DNA of 37,768 nucleotides, taken from Candidatus Woesearchaeota archaeon (lineage in GTDB: Archaea; Nanobdellota; Nanobdellia; Woesearchaeales; DSVV01). Positions 1,728 to 35,297 of this stretch are shown piece by piece (within the stretch, counting starts at the first letter, position 1; every line of letters begins with the position of its first letter). Below the pieces are notes generated by a model. The model was given only the letters and a program-made list of their open reading frames with translations. It had not been told where the DNA came from and did no database searches. The stretch is from assembly GCA_018303325.1 (NCBI GenBank), contig JAGVYH010000048.1, positions 1-37,768 on the forward strand. Reading direction: 5' to 3'. The position numbers and the translations under genes were made by a program.

Positions 1728-2063
1728 TCAACTGCATACATAACTTATTTTCTGGTCAGTTCCTTCAATATCACTATAATGAAATATGCCTTTTATCTTC
1801 TGCCCTTCAATAATATCATTTATTTTCATAGTCGAAGAATTAAGTATTTTTAGGTTTGCCTTGTTTATTGTATCCAGTGTAACAATGCAGTCTGTAAACG
1901 TGTCGTTATTTGCTATCGTGAACCAAATTTCATCATTAGAATATTCTGATTTAAAGAACTCAATGTTTTTTGGGAGATAGACTGCTTTGCCAGTTATTAA
2001 ATTGCCACAGCTAACAAACGAAATTAGTAAGATTATCAAAATAATAATTGGAATTAATCTCAT
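1728..2063 (-). CDS. Small secreted/lipoprotein-like protein
   Basis: N-terminal hydrophobic segment then Cys and LITGKAVYLP (MRLIPIIILIILLISFVSCGNLITGKA). Confidence 0.55.
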   Translation of the reverse strand: MRLIPIIILIILLISFVSCGNLITGKAVYLPKNIEFFKSEYSNDEIWFTIANNDTFTDCIVTLDTINKANLKILNSSTMKINDIIEGQKIKGIFHYSDIEGTDQKISYVCS

Positions 2064-2162
2064 ATTTAATTGAATAAGTAAGGAAATATATATATATAAT
2101 CAGTAATAATAAAATAATCATAATAACTAATCAATAATAATCGAGTTATGGTGTGATTTACC

Positions 2163-2765
2163 TTGAGTTTAAATGAGCTTTTAAAAACCAATAAAGATGC
2201 AAGAAAAATATTCGGCAGGAAAGAGATAGAAATCATACTAAAACAAATAAATGGGATTTCTTTAACACAATCTGAAAAGAACAGATTGTCTAGGGATATA
2301 AGGCCAAAATTTAGATTTATAAAAGAAGTTTCTCTGTTTCAGGATGAGTTTGAGCTAAAAAAAGATTCTGCTGCCACTAAGATTATTAAAAGAATAGTTA
2401 ATCTGATATTACAGGACGAATTAGCAAATAATGTTAAAGCAATATTGTTGTTTGGCTCTCATGTTCTGGGTAATGTAACGCCCAGATCTGATATAGATAT
2501 CACAGTTATCTTTACAAAAATATCCTTAAAAAAAGCTACAAAATTTAGAATAAGGATTTCCAGAGAGTTCTCTAAAAAAGTAGATATACAGGTATTTAAT
2601 GTTCTGCCGCAAAAAATCAAAAGAGAAATTGCAAAAAAATATAATATTCTTTACAAAACACCTGATTTTGATAATGCCAACTTTTTTATATCTTATCTGA
2701 AAGAAGATGATTATTTTATAAGAAAACATAAATTTTTTGGTGATAATTATGGCAAAAATAAATGA
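2163..2765 (+). CDS. MNT-type minimal nucleotidyltransferase (HEPN/MNT TA antitoxin-like)
   Basis: LLFGSHVLGNVTPRSDIDITVIF = GS-x-G-x(n)-SDID signature; overlaps the start of a HEPN-like ORF. Confidence 0.75.
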   Translation: MSLNELLKTNKDARKIFGRKEIEIILKQINGISLTQSEKNRLSRDIRPKFRFIKEVSLFQDEFELKKDSAATKIIKRIVNLILQDELANNVKAILLFGSHVLGNVTPRSDIDITVIFTKISLKKATKFRIRISREFSKKVDIQVFNVLPQKIKREIAKKYNILYKTPDFDNANFFISYLKEDDYFIRKHKFFGDNYGKNK

Positions 2766-3369
2766 CAAGATTACACAAATTATTCAATATTTAAAAGAGC
2801 TTAGCGAAATTGCGCCTTCTGATATTGAAGAATACAAATCTATAGGAAATAACATTAATAATCAGATAAAATAAAACAATAGTAATGTTATTTCCTAATA
2901 AGCAAATCACTTTTTGTAAGTAAGCAAACTTACGAAGATTAAAGTGATTTGCTATAGAGGGTTTTGAATAACCTATACAAATAGTCAAAACCCTTAATAG
3001 AACCGCTTTGAAAAATATCATAAAAAAGAGTTTTTCAAAGCTCTCTATAATCTAGAAAAAAAAGCAGCATGTGAACGGTATATTGAGAAGATTGTAGAAG
3101 CAATAACTGATTTGGCTTTTTTAATAATAAAATTAAAAAGACTGAAAATACCAGAAGATGATATTGATGCATTTAACATTCTTAGTGAGAATAAAATTAT
3201 TAGCTCAAGTTTAGCCTCAAAACTTAAAAATGCAAAAGGAATGAGAAATATCATCTCACATCAGTATGGCTCTATTGATGATAACATTATTTTTGAGTCA
3301 ATTACTGAAGAATTGGATAAGAATGTAAATGAGTTTATTAAAGTCATTAAGAAAATTAAAGGAGTATAA
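2749..3369 (+). pseudogene. HEPN (DUF86-like) partner, split by a ~201-bp four-hairpin insertion (about 2842-3042)
   Basis: 5' part MAKINDKITQIIQYLKELSEIAPSDIEEYKS and 3' part LYNLEKKAACERYIEKIVEAITDLAFLIIKLKRLKIPEDDIDAFNILSENKIISSSLASKLKNAKGMRNIISHQYG (with HEPN R-N-x3-H: RNIISH) are in the same frame, separated by stops. Confidence 0.7.
2842..3042. repeat. Tandem array of four hairpins
   Basis: GGAAATAACATTA/TAATGTTATTTCC (2845-2857/2883-2895); AGCAAATCACTTT/AAAGTGATTTGCT (2901-2913/2941-2953); AGGGTTTTGA/TCAAAACCCT (2958-2967/2985-2994); GCTTTGAAAAA/TTTTTCAAAGC (3005-3015/3031-3041). Confidence 0.9.
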
Positions 3370-3416
3370 TATGTTAAATTTTAGAGCAATTCATAACAAA
3401 ATTCAGAAACTTTTAT

Positions 3417-3504
3417 ATATAGTAAGTGACCTAAATCTCATCAATATCGCGTCACTTACTATATTTGTCGGGCATAACTATTTTGATAAGTATTTATGTC
3501 CGAC
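3417..3504. repeat. Two tandem hairpins upstream of the 94-bp repeat
   Basis: ATATAGTAAGTGAC/GTCACTTACTATAT (3417-3430/3451-3464) and GTCGGGCATAA/TTATGTCCGAC with one G-U (3467-3477/3494-3504). Confidence 0.9.
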
Positions 3505-3532
3505 ATTATACCCATTAAAACGAGAATAAGTT

Positions 3533-3626
3533 ATATACTAAAAGTGCAAAATAATCGAACATTATTTTGCACTTTTGTATATACAAAAGTGATTAATTTG
3601 TTCGAAAATTAATCACTTTTAGTATA
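3533..3626 (+). repeat. 94-bp double-hairpin repeat, copy 1
   Basis: ATATACTAAAAGTGCAAAATAATcgaacATTATTTTGCACTTTTGTATATACAAAAGTGATTAATTTgttcgAAAATTAATCACTTTTAGTATA; exact reverse complement of 10902-10995. Confidence 0.95.
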
Positions 3627-3680
3627 GATAGATATGATACTAATCTATTACCTAATAACAATCAAAAAAAGAGGAATATC

Positions 3681-6600
3681 ATGATAAAAAAGAGAAGATT
3701 AATATTTTTATTTTTAATAGCCCTATTATTAATAATCTCGGTAATACTTAGCTCATCTGTTTTAGGGCTTCTTATTCCTCAAACAGGCAAACAAGTAGGA
3801 GATTTAAGCGAAATCGAATCTTATAAAGGCACATCACGATTGTTCTTAGAAATGTTTGTAGGTTGTTTGAGAAAGCAAGATGGAAATTATATTGGTGCAA
3901 TACCACATTACAATTCAAGTTTATTGTTAGACCAAAAAATAGATATACCTTCAGATGATGAGAAGATTTATCCAACACCGAAATTTTCTAATCCATGGGG
4001 AAATCAGGTAGATGATTTTATGGAAAAAATTATGGACAATGGTATAGAAGAAATTCCTCAACTCGAGATTTCATGGAAACAAGCTCCCAAATCTTATCTT
4101 TATGAAGGCGATTGTTACTTGTTTGCTAATTATTGGCATCAGTTCTGGAACAATAATGAAGAAATAACACAAGATGATGAAGCGTTTAGTGTGTTAAAGG
4201 AAGATGAACTTTATAGTGATAATGGTGGTACTAAAACAGAATTAGATGATGTCGCTCAAATTGACGAAGGTTTAGAAGCCCCATTTAAAGGCGCGTATTA
4301 TGTTAATAATAATGATTACAAATATTCAGTTTATTGGGAAGGTTCCCCACAAGGTAGTCAAGAGAATTGCGAAAATTATGGTGGTTTTTATAAAGATGTC
4401 GAAGACAATAAAGTCAAGAATTGTTGCGGCGACGATTACCTATGGATAATGAACGGCGTCTATAATTTTGATGGCAATCAAGATAAATCAGTAGATGAAT
4501 TATGTCTTTATGGTTATGTTTCTCCAGACACAGGCGAGCCATTAGTAGAATCTTCAGAATCGCAAATATATCATTCAACTGCAAAAGTAGGCAATCATCC
4601 ATACAGAAAAGGTGTTTATTGCACGCCTTTGGCAGCGGTTGGTGAAGTTTCTGATATACATTATTCTTACGATATCAACAATTATGATCCGCAAAGCACA
4701 ACAGAACAGAGAAGATTGTTTGTCTACAAAAAGGATTTACCAACAACTACTGCAACAGATGTTGGATTGTGGAAAACAGATACTTCTGCTAATTATTGTA
4801 CACATTATTTTTCAGATAAAGATGCTGGTTCTATAAAGAAAGGTGATAACTTCGAATGGTTAACTCCAGAACAAGCAGGCGAGATAAATTATTTTGGTGT
4901 TGGTAATGATGGTAAAACAGCTTTTGATAAAGACAACAAACCATATATTGCAGACAAAAAATTCATATTAAACCCAAAAGCACCAGACTACATCTACGAC
5001 GTCATGACTAAACAATTGTCTGGAGATGCTTACAAAGATTCAGATGACTTTACTATCTGCAACTTATTCCTAAACGGAACATGGACAGGACATCATTGTT
5101 GTGGTGGAAAATATGATTATACAGCTAAAAAACCAATCCTTGAAAACTTTAACGACGAAGGTGAAGACGGAACACATTACGTATTAACCAAGAACAGATT
5201 AAAGGCATACAGTCTAAGCGCAGAAATAGAAAGCGGAGAAGTATTGAAAGAGCCAAACAAAGCATGTTATCAAGGAGAAGCGATTGAAAGTGGGGAGATA
5301 AGGAATGTTGTTCCTAATCCACCATTTCTTGTCGGCGATAATATTCGTTCATTCATTAACAAAAAGGGAATATTATCTTTATGTAGTAATTTAAATACTG
5401 TTTATCTTGGCAATGAGGAAAAACAATTCTTTGGAGATTCACTAGGGTTTATTTATGATTTTGATTTATTTGCCGCTTCAACCAATTATCTTTTTTATGA
5501 CAACACAAAAAAAGAACTTAAAAATGTTAAACCACATTGTGGCTCTTTCTATCTCAAAGCAGGCGAGGATTTGGTTGGCTCAGGTGACTCAAATGACAGG
5601 TTCGCCTACTGCTTCACCAACAATACTTGGCTAAGTTTTGATATAGAAGATTTGCCAGATGAACAAGGTACAAACAACGAGTTAGATATATTAGGGAGAT
5701 ATCCTGCAGAAGGCGATGTATTGCATGAATCAAGCATTAATGTTGATTTTAAAACTATTAAAAATAAGGTTGTGAAATCTGACAAAGGTTGCTGTTTTGA
5801 AGGTGATTGCTGGAATGGCCAAGAATGCGTTGCTAATGGTGATACAGAGATGGATAAATATGTTGATCCAAAAAAAGTTTATCTTTGCGCTAACGGCGAA
5901 TGGACGTCTGGCGAAGCTTCATTTAACTGGTACGACGAGAAATTTGCAGGCGAAGTTGAGCCATCCCAAACAGGATTAGCATATTGTGTAGACAAATGGT
6001 CTTGCGCCTGTCCTGAAAAAGATGTTTATGATTTAGGCGATGAAGACCAGCATGAGATAGATGTTTGCGAAACTTATACACAACCAAATTCCCTGTGCAC
6101 AAGAGAGCCTGCGATGTTTATCGACGACAGATTCTGCGAGCCAGAATTTACGAAAAAAGATGACAATGGTTATGATTTTAAAGATGCCTCAACAATAACA
6201 TCATCACAATGGACTTCTCGAACAAAATATCTCGCAACTGCATTGTTAACCCTTGCTCAGCAAAAGAAGTCAAATGAGTTTACTTTACATTGCGACACCC
6301 CAAAAAATGTTCTTAACTTTTATGATTTAAGTTTTACAAAGGATTTGTTTGTTACAGAACTGGATTATAATAATTTCTGTGCCTTAAAACTTAAAACAAA
6401 TGCTGGTGATGAAGAAATTTATTTAGGCACAACATTAAACCCAAAACTAAACTATGATGAAATACCTGAAGAATTATACCAAACAAAAGAAATATCTGAA
6501 TTTGAGCAGTGCACAGACGACACTAGTTGTATCGAAGGATATGGCTGCTACAAAAAGCCTGCTGCCAATGTTGGACAATGTGTCAAACAATGTTATGATA

Positions 6601-7421
6601 ATAGTGATTGCGAAGAAAACGAAGGATGTTATTCTGAAGATGGGGAAGAAGTGAGTGAAAATGAGGTTAATCAAGGATTATGCGCAAAAAAAGCGCCAAA
6701 ATCATTCGATATGTTTAATATTGAAAATTTAGGTGAATTGTTTTATGGAACATCTGACACAACAGGCATATTAGATAATGAATTCTTGTTTAAATTAACT
6801 AGCAAGACATTTGCTGAAGAGGAATGCAAAACTATTCTTGAAGGAACTAACCCCCAAAACGGAAATGGTGATAATTTCTTGCTCTTTAAAACTTGTGATA
6901 ATAATAATGTTGCTTTTAATAATTTTACAAAAGCAATGATATTTAGTAACAACCCACAAGAAAAAGAATTTTTAACATTGACATATGACGAGACCACAAA
7001 TAATGAGTTAATTAGTAATGTTAATGATATAAAAAAGTATTATCAGAGTAACAAAGACAAAATCGCAGAGAAGAAAGAAATGGATATTATTAATACTCTT
7101 TCTGATTTTGACAAAGTATACTATGCTAAAAAAGATACTAAAGTAATCTTCGGCGTCTTAGAACGAAAATCAGACCCAGATGCTTCTGGAGATCCTTCTT
7201 CAAAGCTAAGATATTTTGGTGTTATTATGTACAAAAATATATTTACAGACAACAAAGTATGTACAGAACTTGAAAACTCCTCGCCTTTGCTTTATTGTAG
7301 TCATGACGATACTACAAAAGTTACAGTAATTATCATCCCATCAACACCAAACTACGACGGCACAGAAGATGCAATCATGAATTATTGGTCAGATTTGACT
7401 GCGAAGATTAGAATGAAATAA
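3681..7421 (+). CDS. Giant secreted Cys-rich surface protein
   Basis: 1246 aa; N-terminal signal/TM (MIKKRRLIFLFLIALLLIISVILSSSVLG); many paired cysteines (CTDDTSCIEGYGCYKKPAANVGQCVKQCYDNSDCEENEGCY). Confidence 0.8.
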   Translation: MIKKRRLIFLFLIALLLIISVILSSSVLGLLIPQTGKQVGDLSEIESYKGTSRLFLEMFVGCLRKQDGNYIGAIPHYNSSLLLDQKIDIPSDDEKIYPTPKFSNPWGNQVDDFMEKIMDNGIEEIPQLEISWKQAPKSYLYEGDCYLFANYWHQFWNNNEEITQDDEAFSVLKEDELYSDNGGTKTELDDVAQIDEGLEAPFKGAYYVNNNDYKYSVYWEGSPQGSQENCENYGGFYKDVEDNKVKNCCGDDYLWIMNGVYNFDGNQDKSVDELCLYGYVSPDTGEPLVESSESQIYHSTAKVGNHPYRKGVYCTPLAAVGEVSDIHYSYDINNYDPQSTTEQRRLFVYKKDLPTTTATDVGLWKTDTSANYCTHYFSDKDAGSIKKGDNFEWLTPEQAGEINYFGVGNDGKTAFDKDNKPYIADKKFILNPKAPDYIYDVMTKQLSGDAYKDSDDFTICNLFLNGTWTGHHCCGGKYDYTAKKPILENFNDEGEDGTHYVLTKNRLKAYSLSAEIESGEVLKEPNKACYQGEAIESGEIRNVVPNPPFLVGDNIRSFINKKGILSLCSNLNTVYLGNEEKQFFGDSLGFIYDFDLFAASTNYLFYDNTKKELKNVKPHCGSFYLKAGEDLVGSGDSNDRFAYCFTNNTWLSFDIEDLPDEQGTNNELDILGRYPAEGDVLHESSINVDFKTIKNKVVKSDKGCCFEGDCWNGQECVANGDTEMDKYVDPKKVYLCANGEWTSGEASFNWYDEKFAGEVEPSQTGLAYCVDKWSCACPEKDVYDLGDEDQHEIDVCETYTQPNSLCTREPAMFIDDRFCEPEFTKKDDNGYDFKDASTITSSQWTSRTKYLATALLTLAQQKKSNEFTLHCDTPKNVLNFYDLSFTKDLFVTELDYNNFCALKLKTNAGDEEIYLGTTLNPKLNYDEIPEELYQTKEISEFEQCTDDTSCIEGYGCYKKPAANVGQCVKQCYDNSDCEENEGCYSEDGEEVSENEVNQGLCAKKAPKSFDMFNIENLGELFYGTSDTTGILDNEFLFKLTSKTFAEEECKTILEGTNPQNGNGDNFLLFKTCDNNNVAFNNFTKAMIFSNNPQEKEFLTLTYDETTNNELISNVNDIKKYYQSNKDKIAEKKEMDIINTLSDFDKVYYAKKDTKVIFGVLERKSDPDASGDPSSKLRYFGVIMYKNIFTDNKVCTELENSSPLLYCSHDDTTKVTVIIIPSTPNYDGTEDAIMNYWSDLTAKIRMK

Positions 7422-7462
7422 TATACACAATAATATTAATAGAATAAATTAGGTATTTTTTT

Positions 7463-7565
7463 AGTTCCTGGGCGAAGCCACCCGTCTCATGAATTTTTGA
7501 GTTTTTTATGTTGTATAAAAAAATAAAAAAATTAATCATAGTGAACTGTGGCTTCGCCTTGGAAT
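7463..7565 (+). repeat. Dispersed palindromic element, copy R1
   Basis: AGTTCCTGGGCGAAGCCACCCGTCTCATGAA...ATCATAGTGAACTGTGGCTTCGCCTTGGAAT; arms GGCGAAGCCAC/GTGGCTTCGCC. Confidence 0.85.
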
Positions 7566-7654
7566 TATAGCAAAGGCACTAAATTTTCGTAATTAACGAT
7601 GCCTTTGCTATATACGTGGACTTTAACAAAAAAGATACGAATATTAAAGTCCAC
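7566..7654. repeat. Two tandem hairpins
   Basis: TATAGCAAAGGCA/TGCCTTTGCTATA (7566-7578/7600-7612) and GTGGACTTT/AAAGTCCAC (7616-7624/7646-7654). Confidence 0.9.
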
Positions 7655-7708
7655 CACTATAAAAGAACTAAACAAATACAATTAAACCATAATAATCCAA
7701 AATGCACC

Positions 7709-10000
7709 ATGAAACCAAATTTATCAAAGAAATCTCAACTAGCAATCTTTATGATTCTTGGAATAGTATCAGTTATACTTATCGGTTTGGCATTATTCGG
7801 CATTTCTAGCTCCACAGAAAAAGGTTTTGCAACAAAACAATCACAGTTAGGAGAGCTGTTTATCGGCAAAGGTAAATACACTACTTACATTAAAAGCTGT
7901 CTTGACCAGGCAACAAAACAAGGTTTAATATTAGCAGGCAAACAAGGCGGCGCAATTTATGACAACCAGACAATTGGAGGTAAACTAAGCCAGACCTCGA
8001 AATATTATGAAGTAGAGGATATAAGAATACATTATTCTTTACTTTCTCCGACAACAATTAAACTTCCTGAATATCCTTATCCTACAATAGAAAACATAAA
8101 TATGCCTTTCTTATCCTCAGACTCTTCTGTTTACGGTATCTCCTCGCCATTTATCAGTGCCATTAATAATCCTTTCATTCCTTTATGCGACAGGTTTGGC
8201 CCAAATAATGATCCAAAATCTAACATTCCTTACTGCGGCAATTTTCCGAACATTTTCGACACTGTAAATATTAATGACCACAATTCTGTCCAGGAATACC
8301 TCCAAAAATACATCACGCAAAAAACAAACGATTGCATTAAACTTGAAACACTGCCAGAGCTTCAAGGATATAATATTATTAAACAAAATTTTAATGTAGA
8401 TATTGTCTTGACAGAATCTTCTGTTGTTGCTAATCTTAACATGACTTTGGCATTATCAACACCGCAGTCAACATTAAAAGAAACCCTGCCTGTAATAGAT
8501 ATCAGCGGCATTTCAGTCGAGAAACACATCAGAATAAAACAGATTTTCGAATTGCTTGCAAGGTTGAGACAGGAAGATTCAAAGAACATATTTTTTGAAG
8601 TAACAAATGCACAGACATTAACTCATTGCGGTCCAAACGAAAATTTGCCTTGCTTAAAGCCAGGAATGATTGTCTCAACCCAAAAATTGTTTAACAATGA
8701 TTATGTCGTCAAGATTACAGACACAGAATCATTGATTGATGGAAAAAATTATGTTTACCAGACAGTTTTTCAGAACAGAAACCCAGCATTAGATTATTTA
8801 ACAGACAATAACCTGAATACACAAAACACAGAATTTTCTAATTACAATGCTGTTCTCGTCGAGGGAATGACTTTAATAATAGATCCTTATGGATATGATC
8901 CTGACGAGGATAATCATGAGAATGGTTTTATGAAAGAGTATTATTTCTACGAAGCAGTTAATAGTAATGGAAACCCAGATAGTAATGGCTATACTAAATT
9001 TGAGGCTGACAAGGATAATGACGGTGTGATTGATTGTATCCTTATAACAAACGGCGGTTTAGATGGAATTCAGAATTCGTTGAAAAACTGCCTTGTTCCA
9101 GACAAATTGCCGCCTGCATTTAAAGACAGGAAAGTAACATATACATTAACTCAGTATGACGCAGGCGAACACATTATCAGAGTAAAAGTGTGCGATAATA
9201 CAAACAGTCCAAAATGTGATTGGCAAGATGTAAAAATATTTGTTATTCCTTTGATAGCTTTTGACACAGACGAGAATGATAATCCTTATCCTTTTAACCC
9301 GTCAACAGATTATCAAGTTAAAGGGCAGTTTATTTATACTATTAATCCAAATGGAATTGTTACTTTGGGTGTAAAACAAACAATTCCTTCAGAATCTCCA
9401 TTAACATCTGACACAGAATCACAACAAGAAAATGATGCTCAACCATCTCAATCTTCAACACCAGCATCTTCATCACCTTCTTCAGCAGATCAATCATCAT
9501 CTCAACCTTCAACACCTTCATCTTCTCAACAAACCACACCAGTAATCACGCCAACCATACCTTATGATAATACCGACGTGGATATTCTTATATCTAGAGC
9601 ATTAAGCGGTACAAAACTGCCTTATGAAATGTATTACTTTGAAAACAAATATCTTATAGTGAAAACTACTGTTAATAATCAAGGTCCAGAAATTGTGCCA
9701 GAAACAGACGCATTTAGGCAATTTGCTGAAAAAGGCGACAATGGAAAACCTAACTTATACATTCAAAAAAAGATTTACGGCACTAACCAGCAAAGCGCAC
9801 TTAACCAAAAGCTAGTTCCAGGAAAAAACCTGTTTTTTATTTACATACCTGAACCATGCACACAAGGAGCATTCTTTCAAGGATACTGCCATTATGGTAA
9901 CAAATGTTATTATAATATGAATATAGTTAATCATAATTTTCAAACAGCATGGGACAATTGTCCTTCTGCAAACCTCTGCGCGGAAACTGGATGTGTATAA
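7709..10000 (+). CDS. Pilin-like/surface protein with class III prepilin-like N-terminus and Ser/Pro/Gln-rich linker
   Basis: MKPNLSKKSQLAIFMILGIVSVILIGLALFGI start at ATG 7709, preferred over the GTG at 7616 that lies in a hairpin stem. Linker PSQSSTPASSSPSSADQSSSQPSTPSSSQQTTP. Confidence 0.75.
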   Translation: MKPNLSKKSQLAIFMILGIVSVILIGLALFGISSSTEKGFATKQSQLGELFIGKGKYTTYIKSCLDQATKQGLILAGKQGGAIYDNQTIGGKLSQTSKYYEVEDIRIHYSLLSPTTIKLPEYPYPTIENINMPFLSSDSSVYGISSPFISAINNPFIPLCDRFGPNNDPKSNIPYCGNFPNIFDTVNINDHNSVQEYLQKYITQKTNDCIKLETLPELQGYNIIKQNFNVDIVLTESSVVANLNMTLALSTPQSTLKETLPVIDISGISVEKHIRIKQIFELLARLRQEDSKNIFFEVTNAQTLTHCGPNENLPCLKPGMIVSTQKLFNNDYVVKITDTESLIDGKNYVYQTVFQNRNPALDYLTDNNLNTQNTEFSNYNAVLVEGMTLIIDPYGYDPDEDNHENGFMKEYYFYEAVNSNGNPDSNGYTKFEADKDNDGVIDCILITNGGLDGIQNSLKNCLVPDKLPPAFKDRKVTYTLTQYDAGEHIIRVKVCDNTNSPKCDWQDVKIFVIPLIAFDTDENDNPYPFNPSTDYQVKGQFIYTINPNGIVTLGVKQTIPSESPLTSDTESQQENDAQPSQSSTPASSSPSSADQSSSQPSTPSSSQQTTPVITPTIPYDNTDVDILISRALSGTKLPYEMYYFENKYLIVKTTVNNQGPEIVPETDAFRQFAEKGDNGKPNLYIQKKIYGTNQQSALNQKLVPGKNLFFIYIPEPCTQGAFFQGYCHYGNKCYYNMNIVNHNFQTAWDNCPSANLCAETGCV

Positions 10001-10035
10001 CGCTTTAATATTAAGGTATTATTATCCCAATAACA

Positions 10036-10869
10036 TTATTTATGTTCAAGCTGTTTCTTTTTCTTCCCTTCAGTCAAATGCAAATAATTTTCTTTTGATA
10101 CAATAGATTTACCTGTTTTTTGTTCAAGTTCTTTTCGTGTGTTTTTAGCAATGTCACCGCCTTCTTTAGCAGTATGTTTTAATTGTGGAAATCCCTTTGC
10201 ATCCTTAGCAATAGTAATATCTGTTGTTGCTTTTTCTCCAACCATAGTCAAGATTAGTTCCCAATCAGTCATATGATCCCTTAAATTTTGATTCGATTTC
10301 TTTAATTTTTTGAATTCTTTGTATTCTCTTATTGTTTTACCAAATGTTGCCTTTGAAATTTCATTAGTCAGAATTCCAAAATCTTTCTCTTCCTGAACAC
10401 CTCTGGATTTCCATTCATCAGTCAGGTCTTGTCTGATAGCAATGCCTCTTAATCTTTTATCAATCCACTCTTTTGGATATCCTTTCAATTCATAATATTC
10501 CTTTACTCTGTCTTGAGCAAGTTCTGGGTTTTCTATTTCCTGAATTCGTTCATAACCCACTTTTGCAAGCCAAAGCTTGAAAGGTTCTGCTTTTGGTGAT
10601 GGAATTGATTGAATTATTCTGAACATAGATTTTGTGTTGGCGCAGTCTGTTAAGTAATATTTACCATCAGCAGATATTAATTTCAGTTGTAAACAAAATG
10701 TTAACAACTGAGATTCTCTTCCTTTTAAAACACCCCAATACTGCCTAGGAGCAAGGCTATCAGTTAATGCTTCAACTACATCAACAACAGAGTAATACCA
10801 TTCATCATTATGCCAAATCCTTCTTATCTTTTTATCTTGAAATACAACCAATGCTTTGTCTTTATCCAT
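10036..10869 (-). CDS. BRO-N domain protein (phage-antirepressor / DinD-like)
   Basis: N-terminal VVFQDKKIRRIWHNDEWYYSVVDVVEALTDSLAPRQYWGVLKGRE...LTDCANTKSMFRIIQSIPSPKAEPFKLWLAKVGYERIQEIENPELAQDR matches the Bro-N/DinD pattern. Confidence 0.8.
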   Translation of the reverse strand: MDKDKALVVFQDKKIRRIWHNDEWYYSVVDVVEALTDSLAPRQYWGVLKGRESQLLTFCLQLKLISADGKYYLTDCANTKSMFRIIQSIPSPKAEPFKLWLAKVGYERIQEIENPELAQDRVKEYYELKGYPKEWIDKRLRGIAIRQDLTDEWKSRGVQEEKDFGILTNEISKATFGKTIREYKEFKKLKKSNQNLRDHMTDWELILTMVGEKATTDITIAKDAKGFPQLKHTAKEGGDIAKNTRKELEQKTGKSIVSKENYLHLTEGKKKKQLEHK

Positions 10870-10901
10870 TTTGTATGCCTGTTTTATAGTCTTGCTCTTT
10901 A

Positions 10902-10995
10902 TATACTAAAAGTGATTAATTTTCGAACAAATTAATCACTTTTGTATATACAAAAGTGCAAAATAATGTTCGATTATTTTGCACTTTTAGTATAT
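10902..10995 (-). repeat. 94-bp double-hairpin repeat, copy 2 (inverted)
   Basis: Exact reverse complement of 3533-3626. Confidence 0.95.
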
Positions 10996-11190
10996 GATGT
11001 CACACAATTTTATCAATGCTTACTGCATTTAATCAAATCTGCGACTGCAAATGGATGGGGTTTTTTGTACTTATAAATGTTTTTGTGCACGGTGCTGTCA
11101 ACTTAAGTGTGCTAAATTTAGTTTAGTTGGTGTTTAGTTCTTTATTTGGTTTTAGTTAATATTCTGTTTTTTAATCCTGTTTCTCGCTCT

Positions 11191-11422
11191 CAGTCCGTTT
11201 GTGGGACGCAGTCCCCCGTCTCATGAAAAGTTTTTTACGTTTTTTTAATAGTTATATAAATAGTTCAGTTTAAAATAATAAAACCTAAACTAAATTTCAT
11301 CATGAGATAGCGGTGGACTTTAATATATATATCTGTTTAGTTAAAGTCCACAAATATAGTTACGGAAATATATATATAATTATTAATGTCCGTAACTATA
11401 CGTGTGGCTGCGCCCAGGAACT
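11191..11422. repeat. Dispersed palindromic element, copy R2, with two internal hairpins
   Basis: CAGTCCGTTTGTGGGACGCAGTCCCCCGTCTCATGAAAAG ... CGTGTGGCTGCGCCCAGGAACT; contains GTGGACTTTAA/TTAAAGTCCAC (11313-11323/11341-11351) and TATAGTTACGGA/TCCGTAACTATA (11355-11366/11389-11400). Confidence 0.75.
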
Positions 11423-11488
11423 AAATAAAAACCAGATAAAAACAACATATTTAAATAGTATTAATTAATAGATTAATAGTTATATACT

Positions 11489-18212: not shown

Positions 18213-18345
18213 AAATAAGAGATAAAAATAAGAGATAACTTACATAAGATAATCTGTAGAAAATAATAATCAAATAACAATATCACAAAAAATTATTGAA
18301 ACAAAAAATGAATTAGAATTATATAAAGTTAAAACAGGTGAGGTT

Positions 18346-21634: not shown

Positions 21635-21659
21635 TTTTTTATTTTTATTTTTTTGTTTT

Positions 21660-21690
21660 AGTTCCAAGGCGAAGCCACACGTCTCACTAT
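21660..21690 (+). repeat. Dispersed palindromic element, half copy R3
   Basis: AGTTCCAAGGCGAAGCCACACGTCTCACTAT; no matching right arm seen. Confidence 0.65.
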
Positions 21691-21810
21691 TTTAATTAAT
21701 TTATTTTTTCAAGTTTACTTTTCTAATAAACCTATTAAAAAAGACATTAATCAGCTAAACAAACACTTTTTCTATTAACTTTTAAATACTAGTTTAACTT
21801 TCTTATCTAT

Positions 21811-35121: not shown

Positions 35122-35181
35122 GGATTTAGGCGTTGATTAAGTGTTTTTACCACCAATAATATATTATTTAGCTCACAACTC

Positions 35182-35297
35182 GTTCCAAGGACGAAGTCCA
35201 CCGTCTCATGAATAAGTTTTTACGTTTTTTTAAACATTACATAAACATTTCAAATTTAAACTAAAAAAACATCTTAGTGAACGTGTTGGACATGCCA
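35182..35297 (+). repeat. Dispersed palindromic element, copy R6, between pyrE and pyrF
   Basis: GTTCCAAGGACGAAGTCCACCGTCTCATGAATAAG...CTTAGTGAACGTGTTGGACATGCC; interior GTTTTTTTA/TAAAAAAAC. Confidence 0.8.

Follow-up and report, generated by a model that had tools for sequence, protein, structure and literature searches.

Hairpin pairs of about 90 bp behave like a small non-autonomous transposon in Woesearchaeota

Bacterial MITEs that target TA, such as RUP, Correia/NEMIS and Nezha, duplicate TA on insertion. They are about 100 bp long, have inverted ends, lie mostly between genes and occur in about 100 copies, and the woesearchaeal element described here is like them in these respects. RUP measures 107 bp and is present in 110 copies (PMC3049150). 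The REP/BIME sequences of the GTAG and CGTC superfamilies are, like our element, short dispersed intergenic hairpins forming inverted dimers; their variable stems carry complementary changes and their dimers combine units that differ in stems or loops (PMC3733652). Further likenesses exist to BOX of Streptococcus pneumoniae, a modular composite with a variable inner part (PMC3049150), and, compared by description only, to the double-hairpin elements of fungi, which are small, mobile and made of two hairpins (PMC7218506, PMC4478555).

The mobile DNA of Woesearchaeota is little known, and in the literature searched we found no description of the hairpin-pair family reported here. The element works like REP dimers and MITEs of about 100 bp (PMC3733652, PMC3049150, PMC10969869), but it lacks one tested defining feature of each, namely the tag and RAYT of REPs and the IS630 partner of MITEs. 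Unlike RUP, Correia/NEMIS and Nezha, it has a hairpin at each end, its stems diverge in a compensated manner and an IS630-type partner was found in 0 of 11 carriers. Unlike REP/BIME, it bears its tag TATAC(TAAA) at both ends (TATACTAAA/TTTAGTATA) instead of a one-sided GTAG or CGTC, shows TA duplication, has stems of up to 15-16 bp and resides in an archaeal host. In contrast to BOX, its modules are interchangeable hairpin units with GTATATAC between them, and the fungal elements differ in being mitochondrial.

We came upon the element in a stretch of 37,768 nucleotides, called the window, which is the entire contig C32 of a Candidatus Woesearchaeota genome of 1.97 Mb in 78 contigs (G000, the source genome). 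A preliminary description had reported a perfect 94-bp inverted repeat around a 7.3-kb pilus/antirepressor segment, each copy consisting of two hairpins. Both statements were borne out. Read directly, the sequence at 3533-3626 is the exact reverse complement of that at 10902-10995, and a repeat search gave arms at 3533-3632 and 10896-10995 with 98% identity over 100 nt and 100% over 94. The features of the window are as follows.

3534..3626, plus strand: copy 1, double-hairpin element, TATAC...GTATA, 93 bp (from sequence and repeat search)
3536-3624, plus strand: copy 1, element proper according to the TA-duplication model, flanked by TA
3540..3576, plus strand: hairpin A of copy 1, stem of 16 bp AAAAGTGCAAAATAAT, loop CGAAC
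3585..3620, plus strand: hairpin B of copy 1, stem of 15 bp AAAAGTGATTAATTT, loop GTTCGA
10902..10994, minus strand: copy 2, double-hairpin element identical to copy 1 on the opposite strand
10952..10988, minus strand: hairpin A of copy 2
10908..10943, minus strand: hairpin B of copy 2
10036..10869, minus strand: Bro-N/DinD-like gene adjoining copy 2, not part of the element and missing at the orthologous place in the related genome G001
18213..18345, no strand: intergenic gap, empty here; the G001 copy located there is G001:C67:25826-25919
3415..3466, no strand: hairpin close by, from a different family (ATATATAGTAAGTGAC/GTCACTTACTATATTT)
2843..3041, no strand: cluster of further hairpins at 2843-2897, 2901-2953, 2958-2994 and 3005-3041

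The double-hairpin fold of the window copies far exceeds chance: DNA folding of the 94-bp copy gave -28.9 kcal/mol (z = -10.8), a value equalled by 0 of 200 shuffles. As described before, the copies lie just upstream of start codons in the same relative orientation; the measured distances are 54 and 32 nt, and the identical hairpin faces the gene at both.

The two window repeats belong to a family that is spread over the genome and numbers at least 50-70 copies. Searching the source genome with the 94-mer returned at least 40 scored copies with 89-100% identity on many contigs (166 candidates). The exact double pattern matched 55 times. The single-hairpin pattern matched 19 times, with a few of these matches forming one half of a double. 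Both patterns had a control count of 0; the end motif TATACTAAAMG occurred 199 times versus 8 in the reversed control. In nine sampled copies, both window copies included, the TATAC...GTATA stretch is identical throughout, and the recent copying proposed earlier is supported. All sampled copies (63/63) lie outside ORFs, and their flanks are TA-rich. Plasmid and phage collections yielded weak partial matches only, and IMG/VR viral contigs no match.

Each unit has the form TATAC(T)AAA-stem-loop-stem-TTT(A)GTATA. A double, about 90-95 bp long, reads TATACTAAA-hairpin(CGAAC)-linker-hairpin(GTTCG)-TTTAGTATA, with CGAAC usually in the left loop, GTTCG in the right one and GTATATAC as the joining linker. 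YCGAAC usually lies 12 nt from TATACTAAA, and hairpin length is almost constant. Stem types A to F coexist in the source genome, where units are arranged as singles, doubles and one quadruple (L062); the doubles L016, L069 and L105 carry additional internal hairpins. Kissing of the two loops was considered, their motifs being complementary, and was rejected: the loops do not co-vary, because copies in which GTACGA faces CGAAC are common (5/30).

Beyond the source genome, the double pattern is present in 11 of 335 genomes of the order. Doubles with true hairpins include those of the source genome (55), G254 (29), G001 (19), G308 (5), G302 (4) and G316 (3), and their stems differ. Two genomes, G008 and G216, gave matches that do not resemble hairpins and are probably due to chance. 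The same architecture, with different but compensated stems, recurs in the Woesearchaeota families f1, f62 and f70, and G022 and G006 contain related or analogous units. In a single scan across 84,980 named species genomes, all matches were in Woesearchaeota/Nanoarchaeota MAGs.

Comparison with G001, which belongs to the same genus, bears on mobility. Window 1733-27335 and G001 are colinear, in a single orientation. At the orthologous places, G001 lacks both window copies and the Bro-N gene, and window 2011-3638 is without counterpart there. G001 has its own copy in a different intergenic gap of the pilus cluster, and this gap is empty in the window. The sites at window 3533 and G001 25826 are too unclean for junction reading. 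Insertion was read at three other junctions, one with a clean orthologous empty site and two with restored reading frames. In the clean filled/empty pair (L105 versus L109) the net gain is the TATAC...GTATA stretch minus two bases, which implies TA duplication: the empty site reads GATTAAAG-TA-ACACC and the filled site GATTAAAG-TA[TACTAAAAG...CTTTTGGTA]TA-ATACC. At L145, a unit pair sits inside the remnant of an IS200-type transposase whose frame stays open on either side of the junction only when exactly TA remains, and the result closely tracks the paralogue L139. The frame of a G001 gene (L075) likewise runs on across the junction only with exactly TA retained. Because the ends are palindromic, TA duplication at these junctions is indistinguishable from insertion of a unit ending in TA.

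We consider it very probable that the 94-bp stretches are single copies of a mobile, non-autonomous hairpin pair of about 90 bp that inserts at TA with duplication and is moved in trans. The element behaves like a small non-autonomous transposon, both MITE-like and REP-dimer-like. Its two hairpins lie head to head within the inverted ends TATACTAAA...TTTAGTATA, and insertion would duplicate the TA and take place almost always in intergenic DNA. We infer a trans-acting transposase that would read the ends together with the hairpin, that is, the TATAC foot and the CGAAC/GTTCG loop, and the DNA would probably be extruded or single-stranded when read. Between the copies, the pilus/BRO-N segment would then be bystander DNA. 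The earlier idea that the repeats are the ends of a mobile unit thus holds at the scale of about 90 bp, where each copy is the unit, and fails for the 7.3-kb segment. Perfect inverted repeats around an interesting locus can be incidental.

It is possible, though doubtful, that the element is a MITE of the Tc1/mariner/IS630 type on which a DDE transposase acts in trans. This would account for the TA duplication and the symmetric inverted ends, and the ends of RUP (~107 bp) resemble those of an IS630-type element (PMC3049150). As in MITEs generally, the element is short and non-coding, is present in many copies and has terminal inverted repeats, and we found TA duplication at three junctions, subject to the ambiguity of palindromic ends. 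However, no IS630/Tc1 transposase sharing the ends was found, and DDE_3 (IS630-type, PF13358) was detected in 0 of 11 carriers tested, G006 and G022 counted, while control genomes matched, an absence that weighs less if the partner was lost or is divergent. Moreover, an IS630-type origin leaves unexplained why pairing is kept despite stem divergence. Among the genomes searched, DDE_Tnp_1 was present in 5 of 10 that carry these or related elements, G006 included, and in 1 of 11 others; it was rejected as the partner, the genes belonging to differing, mutually unlike IS families at loci without element ends. Following solitary ends revealed no autonomous copy.

Somewhat less likely is a REP/BIME-like process, in which a Y1 (HUH) tyrosine transposase reads the foot and loop of single-stranded hairpins and moves them without true target duplication. 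The conserved foot and loop, the free but paired stems and the inverted dimers, which resemble REP dimers (PMC3733652), would agree with it. Intergenic inverted hairpin dimers are indeed what we observed, and Y1_Tnp was found in G000, G001, G006 and G022. Yet the Y1 genes found resemble ordinary IS200, and no units flank them in G000, G001 and G006; unlike in REP/BIME, no repeat-flanked Y1 (RAYT) was found, the one-sided GTAG/CGTC tag is missing, and several carriers are without a Y1 gene. No Y1 transposase was found in G254, the second-richest carrier in doubles and 97% complete, nor in G308, G195 and G270; all four are among the better-assembled carriers and have good completeness. The completeness of the carrier MAGs (66-98%) weakens single absences, but does not easily weaken all of them together.

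The stems diverge while their pairing is kept. Among 28 unit types from several genera, which are related within lineages and do not represent 28 independent events, 191 of 196 variable stem cells were Watson-Crick paired, compared with a mean of 50% and a maximum of 63% in 5000 stem shuffles, and all four pair types were present at several stem positions. We counted pairing using our own script anchored at the element ends, because MAFFT left the stems unaligned by structure. Arm mismatches (2 G.T versus 4 A.C) displayed no G-T excess, another difference from REP/BIME, so they give no sign of RNA and are better explained by a DNA hairpin or by palindrome repair. Covariation without G-T bias suggests that a DNA hairpin is what is recognized. 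We put forward, tentatively and as an unlikely reading for now, that the woesearchaeal pairs are recognized by shape (the TATAC foot, the paired stem and the CGAAC loop near-fixed in position) and that the enzyme inserting them at TA belongs to neither the IS630-type DDE nor the Y1 transposases, hence to an undescribed system. The family spreads without a detectable sign of either usual partner enzyme, and a transposase that may be new could be sought through it by experiment; its points of interest are the missing enzyme and a DNA hairpin pair conserved at the level of structure.

Pairing could also persist through palindrome repair by template switching, with no selection on structure. Such repair is expected to yield perfect arms and loop flips (L030), but the near-constant hairpin length and CGAAC loop position, as well as the ends common to several families, are left unexplained, and we regard this origin as rather improbable.

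It is still less probable that the copies are kept for gene control as regulatory RNA or operator, be it a terminator, a leader hairpin or a TATA-box donor. The window copy is also very stable when folded as RNA, 20 copies face a start codon within 150 nt, and the element ends resemble archaeal TATA boxes. However, the intergenic contexts among the 63 sampled copies are tandem (35), convergent (15) and divergent (10), neither hairpin is preferred next to gene starts (12 versus 8 of 33 copies), the mismatches lack the G-T bias, and an Rfam 15 search with the element gave nothing above the gathering threshold. Local regulatory effects of copies are possible. The proposed shared operator for the BRO-N protein is not supported, given the same lack of hairpin preference and the nine Bro-N/DinD-like genes of the source genome, only two of which have a complete element just upstream, at window 10036-10869 and on G000 C46 (L033/L176). 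Bro-N was the only recurrent protein of interest beside elements, and its two occurrences are about what we estimate from element density.

That recombination between the two copies inverts the 7.3-kb pilus region, as also proposed initially, is highly improbable despite the perfect inverted repeats at its borders. A phase-variable segment would have repeats specific to it, but this repeat occurs in dozens of copies across the genome; the G001 cluster is colinear without either repeat, and no recombinase was seen among the window proteins tested.

Some copies deviate from the usual form. The single units G000:C69:29874-29921 and C73:48223-48270 have arms from different unit types (B and D-like), as if a double had lost the stretch between its loops. 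In L030 (2057-2149) and G316:C45:30577-30671 the loops are reversed, with GTTCG in place of the usual CGAAC, which suggests inversion of the loop between perfect arms.

Other repeats accompany the family. In G006, a member of another genus, hairpin arrays (L077, L081, L084, L086) have TATAG...CTATA ends and TTCGAA-like loops, with up to three different hairpins in succession. The intergenic DNA of the window contains many other hairpins of different sequence (3415-3466, 7566-7612, 11355-11400, 2843-3041), several of them bounded by TATA, for example TATAGCAAAGGCA...TGCCTTTGCTATA and TATAGTTACGGA...TCCGTAACTATA; their style suggests additional families akin to this one. Further dispersed repeats recur at window 11186-11283 and 35171-35268, 11400-11433 and 21652-21709, for example around TTCCAAGGCGAAGCCAC, and flanking repeats of this kind gave many matches in G001.
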